Below, piece after piece: positions 7,891 through 31,668 of a stretch of 34,926 bases of DNA. Made by a program: the position numbers and the translations under genes. The stretch comes from Oscillospiraceae bacterium (GTDB lineage: Bacteria > Bacillota > Clostridia > Oscillospirales > Oscillospiraceae): positions 1 to 34,926 of the forward strand of contig CADAPH010000026.1 in assembly GCA_902789745.1 (NCBI GenBank). Direction: 5' to 3'. The stretch's first letter is position 1. The number at the start of each line of letters is the position of its first letter. Below the pieces are notes generated by a model. It searched no databases. It was given only the letters and a program-made list of their open reading frames with translations, and was not told where the DNA came from.

Positions 7891-8981
7891 TTAACTTCGG
7901 CGGTCTGCCTGCCTGTTTCTTCGGTTGTTTTCGGGCTTGCAATAGAATTCCTGCTTCGCGCCGAGCATGCGCCTGTCGGCCTCCATGACGAGCCCGTGCA
8001 TGTCAAGCCCGCCCTGCGCCTTGTCCTGTTCGGCGACGCCGAAGGAGACGTGGTAGCCTTTTTCGGCCAGCTCCCGCCGGAGCTGGTCGATCTCGGCCGT
8101 CACTGCGTCATCTTGGCGTCCGTCCGAAAAGCGACGAACTCGTCGCCGCCGATGCGGAAGGTGTGCTCCGGGCCGAAAACCGCCTGCAGGGCTTCGGCGA
8201 CGGTGCGCAGCATGATATCTCCCGCCTCGTGGCCCTCGCTGTTGTTCTTCTCGTGCAGACCGTTCACGTCGCCATAGACGCAGACCAGATTCGACGCGCA
8301 CAGCTGGGGGTATTTCTTCAACTGATTTTCATAGTGATTCCGGTTTTTAACGCCCGTCAGCAGATCGGTCTGACTCATGTACTCGATCTGGCTGGACTGC
8401 TTGAGCGCGCGTATCTTGATGTTCATGATGAAGACGGTGGTGACGGCCGCCACGACGGCGAAGGTGACCGAATTCCATATGTCAAGCTGTGCGATGGCCG
8501 GCTCCTTGCAGTTGACGACGATCGAACAGAACACGGCGACAACGGCCGCAATCATAATGGACAGTCTGCTGGGACGGTCATAGAACAGCAGGGGGCTTAC
8601 CAGCAGGAAAGCGACCGCCGACACGGCCGGCTTATCCGCGTGCAGCATTGAAATACGAATGCCGAAGGTATACAGCATGATCTCGAAAAGATAGACCAGC
8701 AGCATCACAAGTGCCGGATTTTTCGGCACGACTTACTCTACGCAGACCAGGATGACCAGCATGATAAAGCCGGAAATCAGGTAGGTAGTGCTGTTTGCCG
8801 TGGCAAAGCCCTGGGAGAGCATGCTCACAATATACAGCAGGAAGAACATCAAGCCCGCAATTTGGGAAAACAGTTTCAGCAGCATCCTGTTTTCATTGCG
8901 GATCCTGGGGACCAGATTTTGATATTCCTCCCTCTCCAAGCCGCCGCAAAAACAAAGCCTATGTAAATTGCTTAATCGCAT
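7891..8981 (-). pseudogene. Broken membrane GGDEF diguanylate cyclase
   Basis: Reading the minus strand from the ATG at 8981 (AAGGAG 14 bp upstream) gives a coherent protein: a cytosolic start (MRLSNLHRLCFCGG), about six transmembrane segments, then a GGDEF domain with TDLLTGVKNRN and the active-site loop RIGGDEFVAF. Two lesions interrupt it. An in-frame TAA at 8733-8735 falls after LVILVCVE, with the same frame continuing VVPKNPALVMLLVY. A frameshift lies between about 8100 and 8130, just after GGDEF, beyond which the domain continues in another frame as TAEIDQLRRELAEKGYHVS. Intact members make c-di-GMP from two GTP. Here the chain cannot be made full length unless both lesions are errors. 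Confidence 0.8.
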
Positions 8982-10826: not shown

Positions 10827-11048
10827 ATGGATATTATAGAAAAACCTGTCAGAAGAATCGATGTACCCATCGCACAAAAGGCAAATTTAACACTTCATGA
10901 AGCAGCAGCTTACTTCAATATAGGTGAAAAGAAGCTCCGGCAGCTTACTGAGGGAGATCGTTGCCCGTTTGTTCTGTACTGTGGTAGTAAAAGGCTGATT
11001 AAAAGGGAAATGTTTCAGAGCTATCTTGAAAAACAATTCTCTATCTAG
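10827..11048 (+). CDS. xis: Tn916-type excisionase (Xis), helix-turn-helix
   Basis: 73 residues. LTLHEAAAYFNIGEKKLRQL is the winged-helix/MerR-like DNA-binding segment used by Tn916-family excisionases, followed by the wing (GSKRLIKREMFQSYLE). Xis bends the attachment DNA and directs integrase toward excision. The start ATG at 10827 is preceded by AAGGAGGTGCCGACC; an upstream GTG at 10818 overlaps the ribosome binding site and is rejected. It lies 115 bp before int, the usual xis-int order. Confidence 0.88.
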   Translation: MDIIEKPVRRIDVPIAQKANLTLHEAAAYFNIGEKKLRQLTEGDRCPFVLYCGSKRLIKREMFQSYLEKQFSI

Positions 11049-11163: not shown

Positions 11164-12468
11164 ATGACACCTAAAAGGAAAGACGAAAAAAAGAGAGTAC
11201 TAAAAGAAGGCGAGTATCAGAGAGATAACGGAACTTACGAATTCAAGTGGAGAGACGCTAATGGCAAACGTCACAGCCGCTACGCAAAAACTCTTGATGA
11301 ATTGAGAGAAAAGGAAACTGAGGTTCTTCGGGATATTCTGGACGGTATCAGTCCTGACGCAAATTCTGCAACCCTCAACGATGTATTCGATAAGTGGGTA
11401 ACAGTAAAGAGGGGACTGAAAGAAGTCACATTCAATAAATACAAGCATGACTATGCAAAGTACATTAAACCGAGATTAGGTAATCGCAAAGTCACCAATA
11501 TCAAAGCTTCTGATATCAGGGCATTTTATAACGACCTTTACGATATTAGGCGTTTTACGGTTGGGACTATTGGAACGATCCACCGTATTTTGCACCAACT
11601 GCTTGAATTTGCAGTAGATGATGACTTGATTCGGAAGAATCCTGCCAAGAAAGCCTTGAAGACGTTTACCTCGGAAGCGCAGCAGGAAGTTTCCACCAGA
11701 AAGTCCATGACGATCGAAGAACAGGAACTTTTTGAGAACTTTTTGGAGTCTTCTCAAAAGTATAACAGATGGCAGCCGCTTTTTATTGTGATGCTCTGGA
11801 CTGGAATCCGTGCCGGAGAACTCACGGCTCTGCGTTGGGATGACGTGGATTTTGAAAAGGACATCATTCGGATCGATCATAATCTCGTATATGTCGGTGA
11901 CGAACAGCTCAAGAATAATCGCACTGTCATCACGTCGCCGAAGACTCCAAGTGGCATCAGGACGGTTCCCATGATCCCCAAGGTCAAGGCAGCCTTAATG
12001 AGGGAGAAAAAGATCCAGGAGTTGATGGGAGAAAAATGCACGGCAGAGATCGATGGATATACGAACTTCATCTTTCTTACTCGCGGTGGCGGACCGAAAC
12101 ATGTATGGGGCATTAACGATGCTCTCAAGAACATTGTTACGGCATGTAACCGTGAGGTGACGATAAAATGGGAAGAGGAGTCGAGCAGTACAGGCGATCT
12201 TCCGGTTACGCTTCCCGAACTGACTTGTCACTGGCTCCGTCACACATTTGCTACGCGCTGCTGTGAAGCAAGGATGGATCCGAAAGCTATTCAAAGCATT
12301 CTCGGACATGCTGATTACGAAACCACCATGAACATCTATGTAGAGGCAACTGAACAAATGAAAGCGGCTGAGATTATTTATCTCGATAACTACTTCAAGA
12401 AGCATCCGCTGGAGGAAGGTGGTACTGTCGCTGACAGCGAGATAAATTTGCCTCTGGCGAAGACTTAA
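11164..12468 (+). CDS. int: Tn916-family tyrosine recombinase (integrase)
   Basis: 434 residues, typical for this family. The N-terminal arm-type-site binding domain (NGTYEFKWRDANGKRHSRYA, about 22-41) is followed by a SAM-like core-binding domain (about 68-165). The catalytic domain carries Arg216 (TGIRAGEL), His356-x-x-Arg359 (CHWLRHTF), His382 (LGHADY) and the nucleophile Tyr392 (MNIYVEAT). All catalytic residues are present, so the enzyme looks functional even though the rest of the element is decayed. AAAAAGGAGAGTATCA precedes the ATG. Downstream lies an array of GGTCGTA-type repeats that may be its arm-type sites. Confidence 0.95.
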   Translation: MTPKRKDEKKRVLKEGEYQRDNGTYEFKWRDANGKRHSRYAKTLDELREKETEVLRDILDGISPDANSATLNDVFDKWVTVKRGLKEVTFNKYKHDYAKYIKPRLGNRKVTNIKASDIRAFYNDLYDIRRFTVGTIGTIHRILHQLLEFAVDDDLIRKNPAKKALKTFTSEAQQEVSTRKSMTIEEQELFENFLESSQKYNRWQPLFIVMLWTGIRAGELTALRWDDVDFEKDIIRIDHNLVYVGDEQLKNNRTVITSPKTPSGIRTVPMIPKVKAALMREKKIQELMGEKCTAEIDGYTNFIFLTRGGGPKHVWGINDALKNIVTACNREVTIKWEEESSSTGDLPVTLPELTCHWLRHTFATRCCEARMDPKAIQSILGHADYETTMNIYVEATEQMKAAEIIYLDNYFKKHPLEEGGTVADSEINLPLAKT

Positions 12469-12707: not shown

Positions 12708-12995
12708 ATGCGGCATGAATATTCAAATGAAAGGCGCATCAAGTATCAGTATATCGATATCCTGAAATACGGAATGAGCAGGGGAGAGCTCACAAGCGTG
12801 AAAAATGCCGTCGGTCTTGAGGCGATGGCAGACCCTGCGGATCAGGATTATCCGATCTTTCAATACCTCGCATCCGGCGAAGCAAAGCTCGATAAACTGT
12901 TTGAAGTGCCTTATCTGATCAAAACGCCGATCGTGCGCAACGGGAAACAGGCTACGGTCGGTTACTGCCCGGAAATCTGGAAGGATTGGAAATGA
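12708..12995 (+). pseudogene. ArsC/Spx-like thioredoxin-fold protein, N-terminus replaced at the element boundary
   Basis: From about codon 8 the reading is a typical ArsC-family C-terminal two-thirds: ERRIKYQYIDILKYGMSRGE, LTSVKNAVGLEAMADP, VPYLIKTPIVRNGKQATVGY, WKDW. Family members are about 115-120 residues and start with a short thioredoxin-fold strand with a Cys-x-x-Cys or single Cys motif. That first about 30-residue segment is missing, and the residues before ERR (MRHEYSN) are not family-like. The integrative element thus ends within or next to this gene's 5' part. AGGGGGT lies immediately before the ATG, too close for good initiation. A strong terminator follows. Confidence 0.7.
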
Positions 12996-14701: not shown

Positions 14702-14777
14702 GCTGGTGTAGCTCAGTCGGTAGAGCAGCTGATTTGTAATCAGCAGGTCGGGGGTTCGAGTCCGTCCACCAGCTCCA
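14702..14777 (+). tRNA. tRNA-Thr (anticodon TGT)
   Basis: 76 nt including encoded CCA. Acceptor GCTGGTG/CACCAGC, D arm GCTCAGTCGGTAGAGC, anticodon stem GCTGA/TCAGC with loop TTTGTAA, T loop TTCGAGT. All arms form. Confidence 0.96.
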
Positions 14778-14797
14778 TCCGGCGCAGAATAGAATAT

Positions 14798-14882
14798 GGG
14801 GGAATTCCCGAGTGGCCAAAGGGGACAGACTGTAAATCTGCTGGCAATGCCTTCGGTGGTTCGAATCCACCTTCCCCCACCA
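14798..14882 (+). tRNA. tRNA-Tyr (anticodon GTA)
   Basis: 85 nt including encoded CCA. Acceptor GGGGGAA/TTCCCCC, anticodon loop CTGTAAA, long variable arm as in bacterial tRNA-Tyr (GCTGGCAATGCCTTC), T loop TTCGAAT. 20 bp after tRNA-Thr in the same operon. Confidence 0.96.
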
Positions 14883-14931: not shown

Positions 14932-14983
14932 ATTTTCATACCCCTGTTTTTGCCTGACCCTTATTGTGACCCTTACGAGGATG

Positions 14984-15032
14984 AAAACAAGTGATCTATT
15001 TTGGACCAAAGGGTACTAAAAAGCACAGAATA
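14984..15032 (+). repeat. Direct repeat copy A (candidate island end)
   Basis: A 49-bp segment that matches 21526-21574 at 41 of 49 positions without gaps. Identical blocks are at both ends: AAAACAAGTGAT and AGCACAGAATA. Looser similarity (CCCCTG-TTTT-CTGACCCT) extends about 40 bp further left in both copies. This copy lies between tRNA-Tyr and the integrase remnant. Confidence 0.65.
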
Positions 15033-15048
15033 TACACTTCAAAGATAT

Positions 15049-15192
15049 TCAGATTTGGTTAGTTAGGGCCTTAATATACTGCTCCATGCGGTTCGCGCTC
15101 TCCTTTTTCATGCCAGGGCTTGCGTGTGCATAAGTACTCAAAGTGAAAGCGGCAGTGGCATGACCAGGATTCTCCTGAACTGTCTTGATATA
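15049..15192 (-). pseudogene. C-terminal remnant of a tyrosine recombinase
   Basis: The last 47 codons of a phage/ICE-type integrase: IKTVQENPGHATAAFTLSTY followed by AHASPGMKKESANRMEQYIK. It retains the catalytic His in the GHA box and the nucleophile Tyr, but the rest of the usual about 390 residues is gone. The C-terminus points at tRNA-Tyr 170 bp away, the standard geometry of an integrase next to its tRNA attachment site. No start or ribosome binding site is present. Confidence 0.78.
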
Positions 15193-15336
15193 GCAACAAC
15201 TCCAAATTGGATAAATCGTCCTATTACACGGCTCAGCAGGCAGATACGCAACAAGCCTGCAGAAATTTTTTTCACCTTGCGCAATGTTTGATATATTTGA
15301 AACAGATAACGCGCGAGAACGAGGGGGTGACGGAAT
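15193..15336. other. Spacer with a weak terminator and the chimera's ribosome binding site
   Basis: Contains GCAGGC ... GCCTGC (6-bp stem) followed by AGAAATTTTTTTC at about 15237-15273, a plausible plus-strand terminator, and GAGGGGGTGACGGAAT just before the ATG at 15337. No coding frame is supported. Confidence 0.4.
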
Positions 15337-16104
15337 ATGGAGAAACTGCGATGCGTCGTGGAGCGCATCACGTATCAGAACGAGCAAAACGGGTATTCTG
15401 TCATGAGCTTTGTCGCCGCGTGGTTCCTGTCCTGGCTCAAGCGAGTCTGGACCGGAGCGGGACAAAGTCAGGAAGTCATAGAAGGTATTACAGCCTTGAT
15501 TGCAGTCGGCGTACTCTTTTATGTCTCCAACTGGATGATCTCGAAAGCGGAGGCCGCTTCCTGGAGCCGCTATATTGACGGAAAGGTTCAGACCTCTGTC
15601 GAGACCGGCAGCAGCTTTGCACTGGCCTTCACCGCGTTCCTCAGCGTGTTCCGCGAGGGAGCAGAGGTGGTGCTCTTCTACCAGCCGATGCTGAATGAAG
15701 GCAATGCCGCCATGGTATGGGCCGGCTTTGGCGCCGGGTGCGTTCTGCTGGTGTTTGTATATCTCGCCATCACGAAGCTCTCGATCCGCCTGCCGATCAA
15801 GGTCTTCTTCACCGCGACCAGTATCCTGATGGCTGTCATGTGCGTGAGCTTCCTCGGCAGCGGTATCAAGGAACTGGCGGAGGGCAATGTCTTCGATTTG
15901 AAGCTCAACGTGCCGGGGATTCCGGAGAATGACGCGATCGCCCTGAAGGACGGCCTGTATAACATCACCCTCTCCATCAAGAGCCCCGGTGAGAACGGCT
16001 ACCTGCTCCATGTGGACGATGAGACCGGCGTCGAGGCCAAGGAATTCTGGACCGAGCCCCTCACCGCGACCTGGACCGAGTGGGAGTTTGTCAAGCAGTG
16101 GTGA
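15337..16104 (+). pseudogene. Chimeric ORF: RecD2 start, FTR1 iron permease middle, P19/Tp34 end
   Basis: One uninterrupted 255-codon frame made of three unrelated parts. Residues 1-23 (MEKLRCVVERITYQNEQNGY) are the opening of helicase RecD2. Residues about 24-190 are the C-terminal part of an FTR1-family ferrous iron permease, with membrane helices, YVSNWMISKAEAA and the REGAE-type motif VFREGAEVVLFYQ; the N-terminal half including the first REXXE motif is absent. Residues about 195-255 (GLYNITLSIKSPGENGYLLH, VDDETGV, FWTEPLTATWTEWEF) resemble the end of P19/Tp34 iron-binding proteins that partner FTR1 in cFtr1-P19 systems. Both junctions are in frame. It has a good ribosome binding site but cannot form a complete permease or P19. 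A strong terminator follows. Confidence 0.7.
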
Positions 16105-16143
16105 TCCTCTCCCGCATATTCCCCATATAAAGAACGGAAAGCA

Positions 16144-16188
16144 AACCTGCTGGCGCACAATACGCGGGATATTGTGCGTCAGCAGGTT
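16144..16188 (+). terminator. Very strong hairpin terminator after the chimera
   Basis: A 19-bp stem AACCTGCTGGCGCACAATA / TATTGTGCGTCAGCAGGTT (one G-T pair) with a 7-nt loop, then GCGCGTTTTATC. Confidence 0.82.
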
Positions 16189-16229
16189 GCGCGTTTTATC
16201 GTAATGAACGTGTCTGGAGGCATGACTTT

Positions 16230-16859
16230 ATGCTGAAATATCTCTGGATGGTCACGCAGGATCTCTTCCTGCCCGTTACCTTCGTTTCACTGATGTACGC
16301 CGTGCTGGGAAGACGGTTCGGCAAAATGGGACGCGCCTTTCACTGGGCGGGTATTGGCCTCGGCATTCTCGCGTCAGCAGTGCTTGCCTGGTTCAAGAAC
16401 ACGTCGAACCGCATTATCTCCAGTCACTGGAACCATGTGATCTATGGGATCATCATGGGCTTTACCGCGGCTTTTCTTCTGCTTTTGCTGATCTGCGGGC
16501 GCAGAAAGCGAGAATCGGAAGCTGCGCCTCTCCGCTTCGGAGAAGTCCTCCTGTGCCTTGCGGGTGCGGGACTCTCGGCGAGCTGGATTTTTTTCAAGCT
16601 TCCCGTTGTATTGGGTTACCCCTTCAACTTCAACACCATGGGCAACGGCTACTGGTCCTGGTATTATATGCAGCGTCTGCTCGGATGGGCGTTTGCGCTT
16701 GTGATTTTGGCAATTTATGCGCGTCTGCTCTATGAATGCGCATTGCAGATAAAGAAGGAGCGGGTTCCGGAGCTGACGCTGGCGCTCGGAACCGCGTGGA
16801 ACGCGTTTTACTGCTTCTGCTATTTTTTTGTGCCCTTTGTCAGCCGGGCAAAAGGCTGA
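16230..16859 (+). CDS. DUF2318-type membrane iron protein, N-terminal membrane half (frameshifted)
   Basis: 209 residues with about six transmembrane segments (VTQDLFLPVTFVSLMYAVLG, ... YGIIMGFTAAFLLLLLICG ...). This is the membrane part normally fused to a C-terminal cysteine-rich DUF2318 domain in iron-transport loci with FTR1 and P19. The frame ends at 16859 after FVPFVSRAKG. The continuation of the same protein is in another frame starting at the AAAA run near 16850, so a one-base frameshift divides the gene. Good ribosome binding site (TGGAGG, 9 bp upstream). If the shift is a sequencing error, the true gene is 16230-17530, about 432 residues. Confidence 0.72.
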   Translation: MLKYLWMVTQDLFLPVTFVSLMYAVLGRRFGKMGRAFHWAGIGLGILASAVLAWFKNTSNRIISSHWNHVIYGIIMGFTAAFLLLLLICGRRKRESEAAPLRFGEVLLCLAGAGLSASWIFFKLPVVLGYPFNFNTMGNGYWSWYYMQRLLGWAFALVILAIYARLLYECALQIKKERVPELTLALGTAWNAFYCFCYFFVPFVSRAKG

Positions 16860-17530
16860 AATGGCCGATCAAATACAGTGCGGAGGAATACGGCTGGATT
16901 CGGAAGCTGACGCAGTTTGCCTCAAGAAACGCCATGCTGTTCATCTGGACGGTCGCCGCGCTGTGCCTGATTCTGGCGATTGTATTTTTCTTTGAGAACA
17001 CAAAGGTTACGGAGCCCTATGACAATCCCGCGCAGCACAGGAAGCTCCGGGCGAGAAACCGCCGGCACAGAAGGCTTGCGGCTGCTCTGACTGTTTTCCT
17101 TGCGGCGATTGCCGTGATTTTGAGCGCGGTCAAGAATTACGATACCCGCGTCATCGAGCTCTCCCCGCCGGAGACCTATACCGTCGAGGGCGAAGAAATC
17201 CTGATCGCGATGGATACGGTCTCGGACGGACATCTCCACCGCTTTGAGTATCAGACGGAAAACGGCGTCAACGTGCGCTGGATCGTCGTGAAGAAGCCGG
17301 GCTCGGCGAGCTTCGGCACCGGCCTGGACGCCTGCGAGGTCTGCGGAAACGCGGGATACTTTGAACGAAACGGGCAGGTGGTATGCCGCCGCTGCGATGT
17401 GGTCATGAACATCAATACCATCGGCTTTAAGGGCGGATGCAATCCGATTCCGATCAGCTATGAGGTACGCGACGGGAACCTCGTGTTCCGGCTTGCGGAG
17501 ATCCTCGCGGGAGAACGGGAATTTCGGTAA
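16856..17530 (+). CDS. DUF2318 Fe-S/metal-binding domain half of the same membrane protein
   Basis: Continues the 16230 gene in a shifted frame: KWPIKYSAEEYGWIRKLTQF, then two more transmembrane segments (MLFIWTVAALCLILAIVFFF; LAAALTVFLAAIAVILSAV). The extracytoplasmic DUF2318 domain follows, with DGHLHRFEY, CEVCG, VVCRRCDVVMNINTIGF and GGCNPIP. The CxxC ... CxxC ... GGCNP cysteines are the family signature, thought to hold metal or Fe-S. There is no credible start codon or ribosome binding site of its own; an apparent ATG start at 16736 overlaps the upstream half out of frame. Translation therefore needs frame correction. Role in the locus: ferrous iron handling at the cell surface, by analogy to cFtr1-P19 clusters. 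Confidence 0.72.
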   Translation: MKWPIKYSAEEYGWIRKLTQFASRNAMLFIWTVAALCLILAIVFFFENTKVTEPYDNPAQHRKLRARNRRHRRLAAALTVFLAAIAVILSAVKNYDTRVIELSPPETYTVEGEEILIAMDTVSDGHLHRFEYQTENGVNVRWIVVKKPGSASFGTGLDACEVCGNAGYFERNGQVVCRRCDVVMNINTIGFKGGCNPIPISYEVRDGNLVFRLAEILAGEREFR

Positions 17531-17550
17531 AAAAGGAGGTCTGAGGTATC

Positions 17551-17772
17551 ATGCTTTTCAAAATGATCCGCGGCGTTGCCGGATATTTCATGGGCTTCGG
17601 CTTTGCCCAGCTCATCGGACAGAGCGTGTTCGGCTCGGCGGTGGAGATGAAGCTCAAGGTCATCCCGATCGTGGCGGCGCTGATCGCGCTGGTCACCATG
17701 GCGGGCAGCCTTCCGGCCATTCGGATGGTGCTGCGGCTCCGTCCGGCCGAAGTGCTCCACGGCGGTCATTGA
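17551..17772 (+). pseudogene. FtsX-type ABC permease 1 with its middle deleted
   Basis: 73 residues. The start is normal (AAAAAAGGAGGTCTGAGGTATC then ATG, MLFKMIRG as in full-length permeases of this locus), but residue 9 onward is the extreme C-terminus of the family: GYFMGFGFAQLIGQSVFGSA, two membrane segments and the typical end RLRPAEVLHGG. Full-length proteins are about 400 residues. The fusion is in frame, so a stable small membrane peptide could be made, but not a working permease. Confidence 0.72.
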
Positions 17773-17788
17773 GAGGGGGAGCGGTCTG

Positions 17789-18775
17789 ATGACAAAGAAA
17801 AAAATGTTTCTGCGAATGATCACCGCCTCGCTTCTGCGCCGACGCTCCCGCATGCTGATCGCGCTTTTATCCATCGCGATCGGCGCGACCATCCTCTCCG
17901 GCCTCGTGACCATCTATTACGACGTCCCGCGTCAGATGGGCGCGCAGTTTCGCTCCTATGGCGCGAATATGATCCTGCTGGCAAAGGACGGAGAGAAGCT
18001 CACAACGGATTCCCTGCGGGAAGCGCTCGCGTTTATTCCGGAGGAACAGCTGGTCGGCGCGACGCCGTATCACTACATACGACTTGACATGACGAGCCGC
18101 CTGCAGTCCTTCACCACGGCAGGGACGGATTTTGCGGAAGCACAGAAGATAAGCCCTTATTTCAGCGTGGAGGGCGAATACCCACAGGCGGATAAGGAAA
18201 TCCTTGTCGGCAGGGAGATCGCCGACACCATCGGGGTGAAGGTCGGCAGCTATATCCAGCTTACCTTCAGGCCGAGCGTCACGGTCAATGAAAATGCTTC
18301 CGACGACTGGGTTCCGGGCGCAAAGCTCAGCGGCAGCGCGGAGGGCTTCAACGCCGGGATCGTTGTGGTCGAGGCAGAGCTTGACGCCGAGGGGAAGATC
18401 GAGAGCATTTCGATTGACGCCTCCTCCCAGACGCCGGAGATCGGCGGACAGGTAGAGTCGGACAAAAACTTCCAAACGCGCTTTATCGGCAAAACCCTGC
18501 CGATCACGCTGGGCGAGGATGTGGACGCCGTATCGGGCGCGACGGTGTCCTCACAGGCGGTGGTGGACGCGCTCAACAACGCCCGCAGTATTGTGAAGGG
18601 CGCTGCGGCGGCGGAGCGATCCGGGTATTACAGCGTCGCCGGCATCCTGGTCACCGGCGGGGAAGAGGAATCCTACGTCTACATGAAGCTCGGGGAGCTT
18701 GAGGATTGTCAACCTCCACCTTGTGGATTCTTGCAGATGATCGCCGCCTTTTTATGGATCACGCCGGAATTATAA
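17789..18775 (+). pseudogene. FtsX/MacB-type ABC permease 2 with an inserted FMN-binding domain, C-terminally truncated
   Basis: 328 codons. Residues 1-45: cytosolic start and first transmembrane helix (RMLIALLSIAIGATILSGLV). The MacB periplasmic domain follows to about 165. An FMN-binding domain sits at about 188-262, with IVVVEAELDAEGKIESISID and the flavinylation motif DAVSGATVSS (Thr252 would carry covalently bound FMN if ApbE is present). The MacB-type sequence then resumes (GYYSVAGILVTGGEEESYVY), and the frame ends in a non-family tail after KLGELED at about 18703. The three C-terminal membrane helices are missing. The flavin domain within the periplasmic loop suggests coupling of electron transfer to metal reduction. 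It could be a natural architecture or another junction of this rearranged region. Confidence 0.65.
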
Positions 18776-18936
18776 CCCATCAGGCGCCGAAAAGCAATCC
18801 GGGTCATAGAAGAAGGCAAGCAGCACTGCACTGCTGAAAAACGGCCGACTTGCGTTCGCGCTTGTTTTGCCCGGAAATCCATTTGTTCATCTTATTAAGG
18901 AATAGGATAAAAAACTTAAACGAGAACAAAAAAGAC
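18776..18936. other. Intergenic region without recognisable gene
   Basis: About 160 bp between the truncated permease and the TetR promoter. One frame across 18720-18830 reads ILADDRRLFMDHAGIITHQA, perhaps the tail of a lost downstream gene, but it has no start. The 3' half is A/T-rich. Confidence 0.35.
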
Positions 18937-18983
18937 TTGACAGGTGACCTTGCGTTCACTATAATAAGTGAACGCAAGGTCAC
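18937..18983 (+). promoter_or_regulatory. Promoter with overlapping perfect palindromic operator (TetR-type)
   Basis: TTGACA (18937-18942), 17-bp spacer, TATAAT (18960-18965). A perfect 17-bp inverted repeat, GTGACCTTGCGTTCACT at 18944-18960 and its complement at 18967-18983 with a 6-bp centre, covers the spacer and -10 region. Binding would block RNA polymerase. The position directly upstream of a tetR remnant fits autorepression. Confidence 0.88.
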
Positions 18984-19006
18984 TCTGCGCGTTAAAGGAG
19001 GTGCCC

Positions 19007-19205
19007 GTGGCAGATGATCGCCTGTTATGAAGAGCATTTTGGTTCACCTGAGCGCTTGCCGCCTGTTCCGAATTTGCCGGAAGAGCTGACGCAGATGACG
19101 ATGCAGATGGCGAACTTCATTGTCCATGATGAAAGAACCATCAAGACGCGCAAGCTGCTGACAGTCAACGGCATCAACTTCACGACGATGGAATACAAGG
19201 CGTAG
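19007..19205 (+). pseudogene. TetR-family regulator remnant with internal deletion
   Basis: After AAAGGAGGTGCCC, a GTG start encodes MADDRLL and stops. In another frame from 19014 the sequence continues as a TetR C-terminal ligand-domain segment (YEEHFGSPERLPPVPNLPEE, LTQMTMQMANFIVHDERTIK, TRKLLTV), then ends in unrelated residues (NGINFTTMEYKA). The helix-turn-helix domain is gone. Normal proteins are about 190-200 residues; what remains is the first five codons, about 45 residues of the middle and a foreign tail. It cannot bind DNA, although its operator is perfect. Confidence 0.65.
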
Positions 19206-19220
19206 AGAGAAGGTACTGAG

Positions 19221-19436
19221 ATGAAGCAGGAAATCACAGGCGGAATCGTTCTGTGCGTGATAGGCCTAATCCTTTTCCTCATGCAGCCGGAATGGCTGTG
19301 GAAGCTTACGGAGAGGTGGAAAACAGAGGATGGGATCGGGCCGTCGAAAAGCTATGCGATCCTGGTCAGGGGGTTGGGAGTCGTGTTTGCTTCGGCGGGC
19401 TTCGCCCTCACCATATGGGGAGGAGTGAGCGCATGA
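19221..19436 (+). CDS. Small two-helix membrane protein (DUF6199-like)
   Basis: 71 residues: transmembrane helix 1 (GGIVLCVIGLILFLMQP), a charged loop with LWKLTERWKTEDGIGPSKSY, and helix 2 (LVRGLGVVFASAGFALTIWG). The layout resembles DUF6199-type small membrane proteins of Clostridia; function unknown. It has a modest ribosome binding site (AGAAGG) and overlaps the acetyltransferase start by 4 bp (ATGA), so the two are translationally coupled. Confidence 0.7.
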   Translation: MKQEITGGIVLCVIGLILFLMQPEWLWKLTERWKTEDGIGPSKSYAILVRGLGVVFASAGFALTIWGGVSA

Positions 19437-20056
19437 CAAGAGAAGTAAATCCGCAGGATACAGCGAGAGCCACAGCATATGAACTGTGGATGAAGGCCCC
19501 GAACCCAATGGTGACCTTTTTCAAAACCCTGGATGTCACCAATCTGCGCAGGATCAGCAAGAGGAGACGCATGAAATTCAATATGCTGCTGTGCTTCTGC
19601 ATCGGGAAAGCCGCCGCTTCTGTCAAAGAGTTCTATCTTCTGCCGGTCGGTGACAAGCTGGTACAGTATGACAGACTCGCGGTCAATACGATCGTCAAAA
19701 ACAGGCTTGGGGAAGTCAGCTCCTGCGATATTCTGTTCTCGGAGGATCTCGACAGCTTTAACCGGGAGTACCTGAAATACACCGCGCAGGTTGCCGAAAG
19801 CTGCGCGGACCGGGATCTGTCTGACGAATGTATGGTGATCGGAACTTCGGCCGTGATCGACACGGAGCTGGACGGCGCGGTCGGTATAAACAGCGGGATT
19901 TTCAACAACCCCTTTCTGATCTGGGGCCGATACCGGAAGAAACTGTTTCACTGTACGCTGCCTGTCTCGTTCCAGTTCCATCACACGCAGATGGACGGCG
20001 CTCACGCAGGCAGATTCCTGGAAAACCTGCAAAAAGAAATCAACGATTTGCGATGA
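19433..20056 (+). CDS. CatA-like O-acetyltransferase (chloramphenicol acetyltransferase family)
   Basis: 207 residues, complete. The catalytic signature near the C-terminus is QFHHTQMDGAHAGRFLENLQ, matching HHxxxDG with the active His. The N-terminal ELWMKAPNPMVTFFKTLDVT and central NPFLIWGRY also fit. CAT-like enzymes transfer acetyl from acetyl-CoA to a hydroxyl. Known CAT proteins are about 215-220 residues and trimeric. This belongs to the divergent branch common in gut Clostridia, whose substrate may not be chloramphenicol. GGGGAGGAGTGAGCGC precedes the ATG. Confidence 0.87.
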   Translation: MTREVNPQDTARATAYELWMKAPNPMVTFFKTLDVTNLRRISKRRRMKFNMLLCFCIGKAAASVKEFYLLPVGDKLVQYDRLAVNTIVKNRLGEVSSCDILFSEDLDSFNREYLKYTAQVAESCADRDLSDECMVIGTSAVIDTELDGAVGINSGIFNNPFLIWGRYRKKLFHCTLPVSFQFHHTQMDGAHAGRFLENLQKEINDLR

Positions 20057-20081
20057 GGCAGGGGAAGAGGCGCGGACATTG

Positions 20082-20270
20082 ATGGCAAACACAATCACGT
20101 TTTTCAGAATACCCGCCGGTATCGTTCTGCTTTTCTGTCCGGTGTTCTCTCCTGCCTTTTATGTGTTTTACATAGCTGCCGGCCTTAAATACGCTGCGGT
20201 TATTGTCTGTACGGCGGCAACGCTCGCAGCCATACAGGAAGGCCATTTCATCAGAACAGGAAGAGAATAG
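20082..20270 (+). pseudogene. CDP-alcohol phosphatidyltransferase with the catalytic core deleted
   Basis: 62 residues. The N-terminus (MANTITFFRIPAGIVLLFCP, VFSPAFYVFYIAAGL) is that of PgsA-like membrane transferases, and the C-terminus (YAAVIVCTAATLAAIQEGHF, IRTGRE) is the usual end of a clostridial subgroup of about 190 residues. The roughly 120 residues between, including the metal-binding DGxxAR...G...D...D motif, are missing. The join at about residue 36-37 is in frame, with no frameshift. The product would be a short two-helix peptide without catalytic residues. Confidence 0.72.
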
Positions 20271-20314
20271 CGGCTCTGGCTTTGCGGAGCCGGGATGAGG
20301 AGGAAAAGCATACC

Positions 20315-20398
20315 ATGAAATTCAAAGGAAATCTTATCGTTGTAAAAGACTGCAAGAGAGCATTGAAATGCTGCCGTGCCTGCGTCTGCCTGCCATGA
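20315..20398 (+). pseudogene. N-terminal stub of a VOC (glyoxalase-fold) protein
   Basis: After GGATGAGGAGGAAAAGC, ATG begins MKFKGNLIVVKDCKRALKCC and stops seven codons later. MKFKGNLIVVKDC.RAL is the standard opening of clostridial glyoxalase/bleomycin-resistance-type proteins (first beta strand and metal-site region). The remaining about 100 residues are absent, and the GNAT gene begins at its stop (ATGATGG). Confidence 0.6.
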
Positions 20399-21480
20399 TG
20401 GAAACGGAGAGAATCAGGATCTATCCCGCGAGCAGGGCGCAGATGGAGCGCATGATCGCCGCCGAACAGGACGCTGACCTGAGGAAAGCGTACGGCGAAA
20501 TGCTGGCGGGCAGTCTCGCGCATCCCGAACAGCGGGCGTGGTACGCCATGTGGATAATCGAGAAAGCGGACGGAACGCAGATCGGCGATCTGTGCTTCAA
20601 GGGATTAGACGTGAGTCGGAACCCGGAGATCGGCTATGGGATTGCGGAAGCGTTCCGGGGCCGCGGTTATGCAAGCGAGGCCGTCCGGCTCGCGCTCCAG
20701 TGGGCATTCCGGCAGCCCAATGTCAACGCCGTCGAGGCGGAAACAGACCGGGAAAATACAGCTTCACAGAGAGTTTTGGAAAAATGCGGCTTCCGCCCCC
20801 TGGGAATCACGGGCGAAGAGGGGCCGCGCTATATCAAGTATAAGGAGAATAGAATGAGCAGCGATTATATCATTCGTTTGGAAAAACCTGAGGAATTCAG
20901 AGAAACCGAAAACCTTGTCCGGGAGTCCTTCTGGAACGTCTACCGCCCCGGCTGCAGCGAGCATTACGTGATCCATGTGCTGCGAAACGACCCGGCTTTT
21001 GTTCCGGAGCTGGATTTCGTCATGGAGCAGGACGGGCGCCTGATCGGACAGAATATGTTCATGCGGACGGTCATCGAGGCCGACGACGGACGGACGATCC
21101 CGGTGCTGACCATGGGGCCGATCGGGATCACGCCGGAGCTCAAGCGAAAGGGCTACGGCAAAAAGCTGCTGGATTACTCGCTGGAGAAGGCGGCGGAGAT
21201 GGGCTTCGGCGCGGTACTGTTTGAGGGGAATATCGGCTTTTACGGCAAAAGCGGCTTTGATTATGCGCGCAGATTCGGCATCCGTTATCACGATCTTCCG
21301 GAGGGGGCGGACGACTCCTTCTTCCTCTGCAAGGAACTGGTACCGGGCTATTTGGACGGGATCACCGGCGTGTATCAGACGCCTCCTGGTTACTATGTGG
21401 ACGACGCCGACGTCGAGGACTTCGACAGGGGGTTTCCGCCCAAGGAAAAGCTGAAGCTGCCCGGCCAGATCTTCGGATAA
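20395..21480 (+). CDS. Tandem GNAT acetyltransferase (RimJ/RimL-type plus second GNAT)
   Basis: 361 residues with two GNAT domains. Domain 1 (1-150) has METERIRIYPAS, IGYGIAEAFRGRGYASEAVR (acetyl-CoA loop) and ETDRENTASQRVLEKCGF. Domain 2 (from MSSDYIIRLEKPEEF, about residue 154) has LTMGPIGITPELKRKGYGKK (acetyl-CoA loop) and GNIGFYGKSGFDYA. An AAGGAGAATAG ribosome binding site sits directly before the internal ATG at 20854, exactly where domain 2 would start as a separate gene. The fusion probably arose by loss of the first gene's stop, or domain 2 is also made alone. Substrates unknown. The first start has no clear ribosome binding site. Confidence 0.75.
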   Translation: MMETERIRIYPASRAQMERMIAAEQDADLRKAYGEMLAGSLAHPEQRAWYAMWIIEKADGTQIGDLCFKGLDVSRNPEIGYGIAEAFRGRGYASEAVRLALQWAFRQPNVNAVEAETDRENTASQRVLEKCGFRPLGITGEEGPRYIKYKENRMSSDYIIRLEKPEEFRETENLVRESFWNVYRPGCSEHYVIHVLRNDPAFVPELDFVMEQDGRLIGQNMFMRTVIEADDGRTIPVLTMGPIGITPELKRKGYGKKLLDYSLEKAAEMGFGAVLFEGNIGFYGKSGFDYARRFGIRYHDLPEGADDSFFLCKELVPGYLDGITGVYQTPPGYYVDDADVEDFDRGFPPKEKLKLPGQIFG

Positions 21481-21525
21481 GAAAACCTTTTTATGCCCCT
21501 GCTTTTCCTGACCCTCGCGAAGCTA

Positions 21526-21574
21526 AAAACAAGTGATATGTTTTGAACCGAATGGCTCTAAAGAGCACAGAATA
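21526..21574 (+). repeat. Direct repeat copy B (candidate island end)
   Basis: Partner of 14984-15032, 41 of 49 positions identical with no gap, same orientation. Weaker similarity continues about 30 bp leftward (GCCCCTGCTTTTCCTGACCCT here). It lies 46 bp after the GNAT stop. 21481-21611 holds no gene. Confidence 0.65.
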
Positions 21575-21611
21575 CGCACGAATAGATGCAAGCTCCTGGA
21601 ATGCTCTCAAT

Positions 21612-22268
21612 TCAGCAGTTCCTGTTGTGAAGCACGCGCAGGACGGTGGCGATGCCAAAGGTGAGCGGCATAAAGGACAGCAGGGAAACCCAGGAAGGAA
21701 TTCGGGTAAAGAATCCGTAAAAATCATCCCAGCCGCCGTTATCCGGCCCAAGGATCTCAACCATGAAATAATAGACCATTGCATAGAGCAGTACCGGGAT
21801 GAGGGCATATAGCGATTCCCGCAGGGAGATGATATGTTTTGTTATAAAGAAGCAGAAGGCGACCATTGCCAGGATCGGGCACAGGCCGTGCAGAAAGAAG
21901 CGGGAGCCCGTGAAAATCAAAACGAAACCCTTTACCGGCGCCAGAATGCACAGCGACACCAGAAAGGTCAGCCCGACGGCGGTGACGCCGGCAAACAGAA
22001 AATCTACCAGCCAGCCAGGCAGATAGAAATTCCTGGTTCGCAGACCGTCGATCGTATACGGCAGGGTCATCAGCATCGCGATGCCGCACAGAATATTGGA
22101 GTTGACCGTGAACATGCAGAATGTACGCAGTCCCATGTGATCAAAATTAACATCATACAGCGTGGTCAGATTCATGGTCACACCGATACAGACGCAGACC
22201 GCCACCACGGCTGAGCTGATCATCGCGCCGATGCACCGTTTCATGGATGTTTCGTGTGTAATGTTCAT
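21612..22268 (-). CDS. Six-helix integral membrane protein (Pr6Pr-like)
   Basis: 218 residues with six predicted transmembrane segments. FCMFTVNSNILCGIAMLMTL matches the F.(M/Y)FT..SN.L pattern of the Pr6Pr / FAR-17a-like six-helix family, and later segments (SRFFLHGLCPILAMVAFCFF; YALIPVLLYAMVYYFMVEIL) fit. Function unknown. Start ATG at 22268 with CAGGAGAACGGG upstream. It and the flavodoxin gene upstream are on the minus strand, separated by 102 bp that contain a GAGCTTG/CAAGCTC hairpin. Confidence 0.72.
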   Translation of the reverse strand: MNITHETSMKRCIGAMISSAVVAVCVCIGVTMNLTTLYDVNFDHMGLRTFCMFTVNSNILCGIAMLMTLPYTIDGLRTRNFYLPGWLVDFLFAGVTAVGLTFLVSLCILAPVKGFVLIFTGSRFFLHGLCPILAMVAFCFFITKHIISLRESLYALIPVLLYAMVYYFMVEILGPDNGGWDDFYGFFTRIPSWVSLLSFMPLTFGIATVLRVLHNRNC

Positions 22269-22370
22269 TTTCCCGTTCTCCTGTCATGAGCTTGGTCACA
22301 AGCTCTTTGTGATTCTCATCATTACGGCCTGATAGGCTGCGGACGTTTTTTCAGAGCGTAGAACACCTGC

Positions 22371-23516
22371 TTACAGCCTCCGATACAGATCGGAAGGGCT
22401 CAGCCCGTTTGCTTTGGCCGTGCGATTCCAGCTCATGTTTGCGACAGCGATATACAGTGCGCGCGGAAAGGCGTATGGCTCGGCAAAAATATCGGCGATT
22501 TCGCTCCCTTCGTTGATGGCTTTGACCAGCTTGTCCATCTCTTCCGCCGCCTTCTTTGTGGCGCCAAAGCGGAAGGGGAGATGCACCATCAGTTCCCCGA
22601 GCAGCTCGCCGGCACTGATCCCCAGCCCGCCGCAATAGGCAAAGCCCATCTTCACACACCATTGTTTTACGGCGCTGAACAGGCTTTGCAGCTGACAGCT
22701 CTCATACAGGCCCATGTTGGCGAGCAGATAAACCTTCTTGGAACCGCCGTTGTAAACCTGCTCAAAATGCTCCATCAGGCGGACCATCTGGGACGGTACG
22801 CCGTCTACATACAGGGGCATACAGAGAACCAGCGTCTCCGCGTCCTCCAGCAATCCCAAGAGATTGTTCAGATCCTTGATATAGCGTTGTATCGTGACGA
22901 TCTCGGGCTCATTCGTGAGAGATTCTGCCAGCTTCCCGGCCAGCTTCCCGGAATTGCCGTTCAGACCCCTCATGCTGCCAACCAGCAGAACGGTGCGACC
23001 GGACGAGCATGCCGGCCTTGTGTCCGGCGGGAGACGCGCCTGCATGTCCTCCCGGAAGATGACGGCTTTCACATATCCCCGGAAGTTTGAGCACAAAGCC
23101 CGAACATAGCGCTTCGCAATGTCCTGCTCTTCCTTTGTCGAGGCCTGACCATAGAAGATGAAGGTAAACGCTTTGGTTTCACTGTAGCGCTTTTTGTGAT
23201 GCGTTTCGCAGCCGACAATCTCAAATTGCGGGAGAACATAACCCAAGCAGCGGTCGATGACGTTCTTGACGAAGCCGGAAAAGCCGCCGTAGGTATAGCG
23301 GCTGATGACAACGACCTCACCGGCACGGTGAATCAACTGCCCCATATTCTCAAACCCGTCTTTTATCACACAGACGCCGGGCGTCTTATTCCAGCAATGA
23401 AAGCAGCCGACGCAGGGGCGGATCAGCCCGTTATCCGAAATGACCGTCCATCCCTCGTAATCCTGTTCGATGAGCTTCCATTGTGCCGGTTTCAGATCGT
23501 GAATGACAAGATTCAT
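22371..23516 (-). CDS. Two-domain flavodoxin / NADPH-dependent FMN reductase-like protein
   Basis: 381 residues. Domain 1 (about 1-175) has RPCVGCFHCWNKTPGVCVIK, VVVISRYTYGGFSGFVKNVI and HHKKRY, the CxGCxxCW variant of the NADPH-dependent FMN reductase family. Domain 2 (from about 185) starts TVLLVGSMRGLNGNSGKLAG (flavin phosphate loop) and includes LVLCMPLYVDGVPSQMVRLM. Each half resembles a separate about 190-residue flavodoxin, so this is a head-to-tail fusion, likely a cytoplasmic flavin reductase pair of unknown substrate. Start at 23516 because CGGAGGTCTTTT precedes it; a longer start at 23549 lacks a ribosome binding site. Confidence 0.8.
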   Translation of the reverse strand: MNLVIHDLKPAQWKLIEQDYEGWTVISDNGLIRPCVGCFHCWNKTPGVCVIKDGFENMGQLIHRAGEVVVISRYTYGGFSGFVKNVIDRCLGYVLPQFEIVGCETHHKKRYSETKAFTFIFYGQASTKEEQDIAKRYVRALCSNFRGYVKAVIFREDMQARLPPDTRPACSSGRTVLLVGSMRGLNGNSGKLAGKLAESLTNEPEIVTIQRYIKDLNNLLGLLEDAETLVLCMPLYVDGVPSQMVRLMEHFEQVYNGGSKKVYLLANMGLYESCQLQSLFSAVKQWCVKMGFAYCGGLGISAGELLGELMVHLPFRFGATKKAAEEMDKLVKAINEGSEIADIFAEPYAFPRALYIAVANMSWNRTAKANGLSPSDLYRRL

Positions 23517-23558
23517 AAAAGACCTCCGTTTTGATTCCAAAAGGTTCATATTGAAATT

Positions 23559-24191
23559 CTACAGCGGTAGTTTCTGCAATAGAAACATCGAAGTTAATCG
23601 TAACAGAAGAAAGAAAAGAAAACAATACTGCAAATTCGTTTTACGGACAGTCACAGGACGCCTGGAGCCGAAGCTGATGTTCAGATTTCCGTTGCGGCTT
23701 CTGAGCTCGTCCAGGAATGCCTTGGTTTTATGCTCGTCCTTCAAAATCACCTTATAATCCAGCTCGTACAGGGTGCCCATGTTGGAAGTCTTGACGCGCT
23801 CGAGTTCCGCCTCGGAGACATACGCTCGGAAAAGATCGTCAAACAGACCGTCATAGTCCGGCGTTTCCGGGATGGTGATTTTGAGCTCGCGTACGTTTTC
23901 CTTCTCGCATCCGAAGCGCAGCCGCTGCAAAAGCAAGAGAAAGGCGGCCACGATGCAAAAGAACAGGGCGACGATCAGGAAATAGCCCATTCCGGTGGCA
24001 AGCCCGATGGCCATAGCCAGGAAGATCATGCTGATCTCTCTGGCAGACCCGGCGGCGGAGCGGAAGCGCACCAGGCCGAAGGCCCCCGCGACGGCGACGC
24101 CGGTACCGATGTTGCCGTTGACGAGCATGATGATGACCTGCACGACAGCGGGACTCCTCGGCTGCGATCCATCCATACGGCTCGATCTCAC
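23559..24191 (-). pseudogene. DUF4956 membrane protein lacking its N-terminus
   Basis: From about residue 15 the frame matches DUF4956: VVQVIIMLVNGNIGTGVAVA, GAFGLVRFRSAAGSAREISM, IFLAMAIGLATGMGYFLIVA, then the soluble C-terminal domain ending RSRNGNLNISFG. Family members begin with two more transmembrane helices (about 60-70 residues) that are missing. The first residues here (RSSRMDGSQPRSPA) look like unrelated sequence joined to the family. The tail after SFGSRRPV is also not family-like. These proteins often accompany VTC-type polyphosphate polymerases; none is adjacent here. Confidence 0.65.
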
Positions 24192-24209
24192 AGTTTCTCA
24201 GGTACAACA

Positions 24210-24240
24210 GCAGGGAGGGGAAATTTAACCCCCTCCCTGC
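24210..24240 (-). terminator. Hairpin downstream of the lactate/Etf operon
   Basis: A perfect 11-bp stem GCAGGGAGGGG / CCCCTCCCTGC with a 9-nt A/T loop, 20 bp after the stop at 24261. Minus-strand T-tract is weak (TGTTG). Confidence 0.6.
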
Positions 24241-24260
24241 ACTATTGTTTGTAGCGTCCC

Positions 24261-24437
24261 TCAGAGTCCGAACTTCTTGCCCGCGATGCTGATGATGAGC
24301 TCCGCGGTGCCCTCCGGCCCCAGGAGGCTGCTGTCGATCATCAGGTGGTGCGGATCGTAGCCGCTCCAGGTTCTGCCGATGGGATAGCTGCCGCTGCCGC
24401 ACTGTCTGCCGATGGAAATGATCATCTGTTTATCCAT
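24261..24437 (-). pseudogene. Cytidylate-kinase-like protein with internal deletion
   Basis: 58 residues. MDKQMIISIGRQCGSGS is the P-loop start of the cytidylate kinase-like (Cytidylate_kin2) family, usually followed by about 140 residues. Here it is joined in frame to a tail that fits the family end (GRTWSGYDPHHLMIDSSLLG, PEGTAELIISIAGKKFGL). The nucleotide-binding core after the P-loop is lost, so no kinase activity is expected. Start ATG at 24437 lies 16 bp after the etfA stop, so it was the last gene of that operon. Confidence 0.65.
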
Positions 24438-27718: not shown

Positions 27719-27742
27719 TCGGTTATCCTCCAGTTCACAAAT

Positions 27743-27893
27743 ACGTAGGGGTCGATCCCCAGATCGACCCGCTGAACAACGCGCATTGTCGTCAGACGGC
27801 GGGCCGCTTTCTCCGCAGCCGCGCGATTGGTGGTCCGGGAAATAATGCCCGGAACGCCAATCGCATTGCGGCAAGGTGGGATGGCCCCTACGG
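27743..27893. repeat. MITE-like palindromic repeat inside the operon
   Basis: A non-coding, about 150-bp structured unit between two operon genes. The left end (ACGTAGGGGTCGATCC) and right end (GGATGGCCCCTACGG) are imperfect inverted repeats. A hairpin GGGTCGAT/ATCGACCC lies at 27749-27770 and a larger one at 27823-27839/27848-27864 (GCGATTGGTGGTCCGGG against CCCGGAACGCCAATCGC, 15 of 17 paired). GTAGGGG...CCCCTAC-ended palindromic units are common dispersed repeats in Oscillospirales genomes (recalled, not checked). It may attenuate transcription or stabilise mRNA between the genes. Confidence 0.6.
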
Positions 27894-29645: not shown

Positions 29646-29801
29646 GATAATACCCCTCTCGTCAGTACGATGCAGCCCCCTGTTTTTTCTTAGTAGAGTA
29701 TATCCGCGATCCCGCGACGGCCTGAAGCAAAACGGAGCAAGAAAAATTGAGTGTTCGTAACTGATACTGCTCTTCAATAAAACTCTTCAAATCTTTCCGG
29801 C

Positions 29802-29884
29802 CAGATTTGTGCCATACTTCGTTATCGGCCTTGACCATACACAAAGTATGCTCTGCGGCCGCTGCCTTGTCTGGCACAAATCTG
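29802..29884. repeat. Inverted repeat in the gene-free stretch
   Basis: CAGATTTGTGCCA (29802-29814) and TGGCACAAATCTG (29872-29884) are perfect 13-bp inverted copies. Inside, CATACTT/AAGTATG (29813-29819/29844-29850) forms a second helix. Imperfect similarity extends outward (TTTCCGG against CCTCGGAAA), giving about 30-bp arms. This is the most ordered part of 29650-29940, which otherwise shows no convincing gene. Confidence 0.55.
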
Positions 29885-29948
29885 CCTCGGAAATCTTTTA
29901 AAGCTTTTTATCGAAGATCAGTATGAAATCCGTTGCGAACACTCAAAA

Positions 29949-31606: not shown

Positions 31607-31668
31607 GCACAGGATGTATTCATACGGCGTTGTATGAGAATTCGTTAACTGATAGGAGGATGATTCTT

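Follow-up and report, generated by a model that had tools for sequence, protein, structure and literature searches.

A 9-kb block of core-deleted and fused genes in an Oscillospiraceae contig: a possible genomic island eroded by recent deletions

Introduction

Prokaryotic pseudogenes have been described as products of failed horizontal transfer, in which foreign or redundant genes decay soon after arrival; that survey looks for frameshifts and stop codons (PMC522871). In Sodalis-type symbionts, inactivation is reported to be followed by deletion, and sequence is lost rapidly under relaxed selection (PMC11137140). Here we describe a locus that would resemble the former in the early decay of foreign or redundant genes and the latter in the speed of sequence loss. 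It occupies positions 15337–24437 of a 34,926-nt contig of an Oscillospiraceae bacterium, the whole of which is referred to as the window, and 13 of its 18 genes are damaged by our count. A first-pass annotation had described the block as one in which genes repeatedly keep both ends and lose their middles. Comparison with relatives now leads us to lean towards a genomic island, close to tRNA and integrase genes, that has been eroded by recent deletions.

Results

The window is the entire contig C26 of a draft metagenome-assembled genome (MAG) of 3.08 Mb in 272 contigs, with 85.6% completeness and 6.1% contamination. In the labels used below, L denotes locus excerpts, G genomes, and C contigs; the source assembly is G000, and excerpt L036 lies on its contig C83. 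Only one genome of the species was in the comparison, and the relatives are at the genus level.

The left part of the block is a collapsed version of an iron-uptake operon that is intact in relatives. L053, L055, and L056 have open frames in the order FTR1, P19, FtrD, FtsX, FtsX, ABC, FtsX, ABC, and G010 shows the first part of it. Gene order in the window is like that of the FTR1–P19–FtrD–FtsX–FtsX–ABC operon of L053–L056 and G010, with 74–86% DNA identity in the retained parts. The genomes of L053–L056 are G050, G068, G114, and G094 (also labelled G040–G043 in one comparison), and the operon-bearing relatives are Oscillospiraceae, Ruminococcaceae, and Clostridia MAGs, including RGIG2288 from goat duodenum and RUG12517. 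When positions 15300–18720 were searched against 102 genomes of the genus, including its own, 10 relatives matched, and 8 of them keep the sequence missing at 17571 (junction J3), as judged from alignment spacing. The same 8 relatives keep the sequence missing at 15938 (J2), 7 by spacing and G068 through a 74-bp piece at a contig end; open frames were read in 4 of the 8. A search of relatives for the same shortened genes, as the first-pass annotation had proposed, found J2 and J3 in none of them, and no alignment spanned any of J1–J4 in the 101 genus relatives.

The end-to-end fusion of RecD2, FTR1, and P19 noted earlier was confirmed against relatives as a single frame (15337–16104, + strand) with two junctions, both in frame. 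Its RecD2 N-terminus (15337–15402, 22–23 aa; OB_YrrC, E 1.4e-6) forms the left side of J1; positions 15326–15401 match the recD2 start of G102 (L161) at 83% DNA identity, and protein identity is 83–91% in four relatives. In G102, ~244 kb of a single contig separate the iron operon from the recD2 that matches best, so J1 does not represent a simple collinear deletion from the G102 arrangement. The middle part of FTR1/EfeU (15403–15938, +) extends from J1 (15399–15405) to J2 (15937–15940) with 82–86% DNA identity to relatives, and scores 84 bits against TIGR00145 (cut-off 303.8), covering only profile positions 69–212 of 282; judged from its sequence, it would not make up a whole EfeU/FTR1 permease domain. 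At J2, where 624 bp are lost relative to L056, it is followed in frame by the P19/Fe2+-transport C-terminus (15937–16104, +; PF10634 profile positions 101–148 of 150), whereas P19 is an open frame of 189–191 codons in L053, L055, and L056. Additional recD2 copies are present in G000 on C245 and C24; at C245:4645-4956, a recD2 start runs off the contig end, with ~82% DNA identity to the window stub over 39 bp. Two recD2 copies of one type in this assembly may reflect transfer or mixed binning.

The FtrD-like gene (16230–17530, +; E 5.8e-29) is full length and carries a one-base frameshift near 16850, its counterparts in relatives being single open frames of 430–441 codons. FtsX1 (17551–17772, +), delimited by alignment to relatives, has been reduced to 73 aa versus ~434 codons; its ribosome-binding site (RBS), first 6–10 codons, and last ~63 codons are kept on either side of J3 (17566–17581), where 1,077 bp are lost in frame relative to L056. 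FtsX2 (17789–18775, +) consists of the N-terminal 306 aa, and its homology to the 8 relatives ends at 18675–18706 (J4). The ABC and third FtsX genes that come next in L053, L055, and L056 were not found in the window. The frameshift in FtrD and the end of FtsX2 homology by 18706 are additions to the lesions recognized earlier.

A second group of damaged genes begins with a TetR remnant (18923–19205, +) composed of a promoter and RBS, J5 (18985–19012), the TetR middle, J6 (~19161), and a GNAT tail. At J5, ~166 bp are lost out of frame after the retained TetR RBS and start, in agreement with the first-pass description, which we correct by a second junction: the 63-aa TetR open reading frame (ORF) at 19014 is joined in frame at J6 to the tail of a GNAT gene, with ~685 bp lost relative to L076. 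The TetR references were L036, L037, L041, L045, L046, L076, L081, and L083, with L076 as the single reference for J6. The gene at 20082–20270 (+), which we take to be a CDP-alcohol phosphatidyltransferase, encodes 62 aa from the ATG at 20082 and has lost exactly 300 bp in frame at J7 (20183–20184) relative to all three references (L036, L076, and L077); a Pfam search with the remnant gave no match to that family. An intact counterpart of ~162 aa lies on contig C83 of the same assembly, whose excerpt L036 carries intact TetR, CDP-alcohol transferase, and VOC genes; TetR and the CDP transferase are also found in G041 (L076), and the CDP transferase in G040 (L077). At the right-hand end, a 58-aa gene (24264–24437, –), presumably cytidylate-kinase-like, has lost 444 bp in frame at J10 by both references (L044 and L060); it is intact in G010 and in G015, where it adjoins etf genes as in the window. 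With FtsX1, the transferase and kinase-like genes bear out the claim that several genes keep both ends and lack the core, all three in frame.

Two further stubs were borne out by the references and a profile. A 27-aa stub (20315–20398, +), presumably of the VOC family, reaches J8 (20372–20394), and its stop overlaps the ATG of a GNAT gene at 20395. DUF4956 (23559–24191, –) lacks its N-terminus (Pfam profile positions 33–165 of 169) and has its C-terminal tail replaced, the references matching 23667–24152 only. Among the matches listed from 40 relatives, no alignment spanned any of J5–J10. Alignment with the full-length genes of relatives shows that what is missing was lost either within a gene, with collinearity kept, or where two genes are joined, and the disabled local copies have full-length homologues elsewhere.

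Intact genes lie among these scars. The earlier statement to this effect holds for the CatA-like family 2 acetyltransferase (19433–20056, +; NF040637, 353.5 bits, cut-off 250); for the other two genes that it named, the small Pr6Pr-like membrane protein (21612–22268, –; 85% over 620 bp to G040) and the flavodoxin/FMN-reductase-like (EFR1-like) protein (22371–23549, –; FMN_red, E 5.8e-9; two collinear pieces versus L079), the genes are apparently intact. DUF6199 (19221–19436, +; PF19701 profile positions 4–60 of 64) is also intact. The double GNAT protein (20395–21480, +) was removed from the list of damaged genes: the same fused ORF occurs in G022:C74 (L039), with 75% DNA identity across it, and the region 20368–21480 was rejected as a deletion scar in favor of a natural fusion.

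In L036, L076, L077, L081, and L083, TetR (none seen in L077) is accompanied by changing sets of GNAT, CatA-like, isochorismatase, CDP-transferase, and VOC genes, and this TetR-associated locus seems to recur in the genus with variable content. At positions 1104–1200 of L083 (G043:C1:43000-46500; G043/G094), GNAT1 is reduced to its last ~33 codons next to an intact GNAT2 at a TetR locus, which suggests similar erosion in a relative; turnover of the TetR-type locus may not be confined to the source genome.

Seven junctions have identified coding sequence on both sides (J1, J2, J3, J5, J6, J7, and J10), and at these we scored microhomology, defined as the uninterrupted run of bases at the join that agrees with both parents. 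It ranged from 0 to 5 bp: up to 5 bp at J1 (at least 3 bp in 4 of 9 reference pairs), 3 bp at J2 (3 of 4 references), 4 bp at J3 (2 of 4) within an imperfect ~11-bp repeat, and 3 bp at J6 (the one reference) and J10 (1 of 2). Microhomology of at least 3 bp was present at 5 of the 7 junctions by the best reference, a choice that somewhat inflates the observed value, and at 3 of the 7 by the median reference. Simulated random joins reached this length in 4.6–5.3% of cases (about 5% expected), and its presence at 3 of 6 junctions has a P of 0.002 against random joins. Microhomology at the junctions is above chance, as anticipated by the first-pass suggestion that a deletion process acted at short repeats.

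The reading frame is kept at 6 of the 7 coding–coding junctions, J5 being the exception, and random breakpoints would give this with a P of 0.007. A phase null and deletion placements were computed on the intact operon of L056, where short repeats between coding sequences were in phase at frequencies of 0.45 (3 bp), 0.49 (4 bp), 0.54 (5 bp), and 0.60 (6 bp), above one third. Short repeats common to two coding sequences tend to share codon phase, which would explain why the frame is kept at most junctions; against this phase-locked null, 6 of 7 in frame has P values of 0.03, 0.06, 0.10, and 0.16 for 3, 4, 5, and 6 bp, respectively. Frame retention can be a by-product of microhomology, an account that does not cover the two junctions lacking it, J7 (in frame) and J5 (out of frame). 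A limited literature search found no report of such phase-locking, and no novelty is claimed for it. Retained ends likewise require no special process, because random deletions of about the observed sizes (0.2–1.1 kb) in L056 began and ended within the same gene 54% of the time and fused two genes in 31%; bigger deletions erase genes without trace. The repeated core excision that the first-pass annotation found unusual is what such deletions would leave.

These values bear on the view, also raised in the first-pass annotation, that selection or a dedicated process keeps the operon transcribed and translated while removing enzyme cores, the frame and ribosome sites being kept on purpose. The 6 in-frame junctions would fit it, as would the RBS-like sequences kept before several starts (including that of the TetR remnant before ATG 19014) and the overlap between the VOC stub stop and the GNAT start. 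Nevertheless, in-frame joining at this frequency is no more than phase-locked repeats could yield (P 0.03–0.16), unrelated genes are fused at several junctions, FtrD carries a frameshift, the end of FtsX2 is lost, and the downstream operon genes are absent from the window. We consider this explanation very unlikely, and the data lend no support to a dedicated core-excising mechanism or to selection for shells.

We compared 870 kb of G000 (545 kb including the window flanks, plus 325 kb) with proteins from 1.6 Mb of G043 as a control; at an identity threshold of 65%, matches were obtained for 171 reference proteins, together 69,250 residues. Full-length matches were obtained for 143 of them; 15 were at contig ends and 13 were partial away from contig ends, the causes not all being examined. 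The uniform scan of these 171 proteins revealed no N-free internal loss of at least 100 bp, and with 13 of 18 genes damaged the block is therefore exceptional. The scan listed 13 breaks in all: 4 short N-free losses, 2 events at N runs (C14 and C33), and 7 that were set aside. The latter were one case of alignments that overlap (C18), three in a pair of ORFs with a second long frame on the opposite side (C5:8738 and C16b:136982), a 22-bp net gain (C17), a 25-bp net gain in the right flank of the window, and an 868-bp insertion (C36). In the comparison that sized J2 and J3, a control event on C17 proved to be an insertion natural to a capsid-like gene, and one on C14 an N gap. In the reverse comparison, 102 G000 proteins gave three frame breaks, two of which were the carB and livM losses described next.

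Those four losses, of 28 bp in carB (G000 C22 ~2880), 32 bp in livM (C28 ~15783), 49 bp in a NuoF/HydB-like gene (C33 ~529), and 65 bp in the gene of a 560-aa protein (C35 ~2635), the first three gene names being our presumption, are all out of frame with a microhomology of 0 and are probably assembly faults. They lend weight to the alternative that the block itself is an assembly artefact, in which low-coverage or strain-variable island pieces were butted together without Ns and the missing cores are unassembled sequence. The draft state of this fragmented MAG, one 8-N gap that hides 77 bp net, one 25-N gap placed on an unmerged overlap, and the lack of relaxed constraint in the retained pieces (below) point the same way. 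In contrast, the losses in the block are of 165–1,077 bp rather than 28–65 bp and are in frame at 6 of 7 junctions versus 0 of 4 elsewhere (one-sided Fisher 0.015); none of the four short losses has microhomology of 3 bp or more, compared with 5 of 7 block junctions by the best reference and 3 of 7 by the median one. Gap collapse should leave no homology and a random frame, as the four short losses do and the block, by the random-breakpoint P values given above, does not. The window is N-free, J1 joins loci that are ~244 kb apart in G102, and gaps of more than 1 kb exceed what short inserts usually bridge. The junction tests speak against gap collapse, although not with certainty, and not against microhomology-sharing chimeras from DNA amplification. 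Taken together, we regard an artefact as possible and to be reckoned with, though doubtful.

The age of the losses was approached through the ratio of nonsynonymous to synonymous substitution rates (dN/dS, Nei–Gojobori) of retained pieces versus intact relatives. Values were 0.02–0.05 for FTR1, 0–0.09 for FtsX1, 0.04–0.11 for FtsX2, 0.06–0.19 for FtrD, and 0.09–0.20 for P19, overlapping those between intact relatives, with FtsX2 and P19 leaning high, and no internal stop codon was found in these five retained pieces. Relaxed constraint was not detected in the remnants, implying that the losses are very recent, that a donor supplied the genes not long ago, or that the losses are not real; erosion of an island requires the first of these. 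Point-type decay on the same contig consists of the one-base frameshift in FtrD and small indels in a GGDEF gene (7913–8981, –; a 1-nt loss and offsetting 4-nt changes) that is one 374-codon frame in G094. The low dN/dS of the retained parts, together with open frames that have a start and RBS, could also be taken to mean that the short ORFs encode functional small proteins in their own right. However, dN/dS was measured against full-length genes and reflects the past, no alignment spanned J1–J4 in the 101 relatives or, among the matches listed from 40, J5–J10, FTR1 is without its N-terminal part, and FtsX1 is without its core; we find this hardly credible.

The setting of the block is that of a mobile element and favors an island. 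A tRNA-Thr and tRNA-Tyr pair (14702–14882, +; ARAGORN) marks its left edge, and a Tn916-type excisionase (10827–11048, +; PF09035, E 2.5e-19) and tyrosine integrase (11164–12468, +; PF00589, E 7.3e-24; PF02920, E 3.5e-17) lie just outside, the pair being 2–4 kb to the left. Between them and the block is what we take to be a remnant of a second tyrosine integrase, comprising its C-terminal ~50 aa (15049–15204, –); tblastn gave 44% identity over 39 aa to a similar, presumably also integrase-derived, tail in L108, and a Pfam search with the remnant found no match. A plasmid origin was not supported: within 15200–21600, the GNAT region alone matches plasmids (5 records, 66–72%). Two directly repeated 78-nt segments with 77% identity (14960–15037 and 21502–21579) bound the 15.0–21.5-kb part and may be an att remnant or an intergenic repeat. 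For 15205–15325, 18707–18864, 23517–23666, and 24153–24263, no source match was found among the relatives' sequences compared. A 51-bp repeat at 18865–18915, just upstream of the TetR promoter, recurs at G000 C41:11562-11612 and C196:1020-1063 with 91–92% identity among the matches listed.

Further observations concern the rest of the window. The segments 29760–29930 and 27738–27806 are interspersed repeats with many sites in relatives (~74–88% and 81–84%, respectively, among the matches listed) and are short, perhaps REP-like (repetitive extragenic palindromic) or MITE-like (miniature inverted-repeat transposable element). A short ArsC-like ORF (95 aa, 12708–12995) covers ArsC profile positions 43–77 of 79 and has DNA matches in several relatives. 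Relative to G043 (521 codons), the gene at 31660–33186 (+) has gained ~25 bp net, and its reading frame changes close to the C-terminal end (~33165–33195).

Discussion

The explanation that we favor, by a modest degree of confidence, is that the block is part of a genomic island near the tRNA and integrase genes that has been eroded by recent deletions. Such an island would have gathered genes from several places and then undergone a quick series of deletions of 0.2–1.1 kb, some larger, through illegitimate recombination or replication slippage at microhomologies of 3–5 bp, one of them within the ~11-bp imperfect repeat. Ku-dependent end joining would not be involved: we found no Ku gene (PF02735) in any of nine genus genomes, G000 being 85.6% complete, while Bacillus subtilis matched as a positive control, and classical end joining is accordingly unlikely. 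Both ends of a gene would survive because a deletion shorter than the gene usually starts and ends inside it, and the surviving pieces would look conserved since the genes worked until very recently, in this lineage or in a donor. The island is probably redundant, and its erosion probably ordinary decay of unneeded DNA. A variant of this scheme, a local deletion-prone state in which some agent makes microhomology deletions of 0.2–1.1 kb faster than point mutations arise and translation-compatible in-frame shells are favored, seems to us unlikely.

Several observations weigh against an eroded island. The lesion spectrum is odd, comprising about 10 junctions but hardly any point decay and dN/dS values that are not clearly raised, and J5 and J7 have no microhomology at all. 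Because the left flank and the pieces of the block lie on separate contigs in relatives, J1, J4, J8, and the ends of DUF4956 are only putative deletions. Finally, the N-free losses and mis-sized N gaps elsewhere in G000 suggest that this assembly contains faults.

If reads confirm the junctions, the block would capture, cleanly, how gene loss begins in a gut-type member of the Clostridia, with deletions preceding stops and frameshifts; if they do not, it would warn that decay of this kind can be imitated by N-free collapsed joins in MAGs. More widely, selection should not be the immediate reading of an in-frame internal deletion, given that 45–60% of the short repeats between coding sequences in the L056 operon are in phase.

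Relative to the known systems, the block differs in the kind and in the reach of its lesions. Whereas the survey of failed horizontal transfer (PMC522871) looks for frameshifts and stops, nearly all lesions here are deletions of 0.2–1.1 kb. Unlike the symbiont decay described in the Sodalis-type study (PMC11137140), the loss is concentrated in 9 kb, intact genes persist among the scars, and the 171 orthologues compared elsewhere in the genome reveal no comparable loss.

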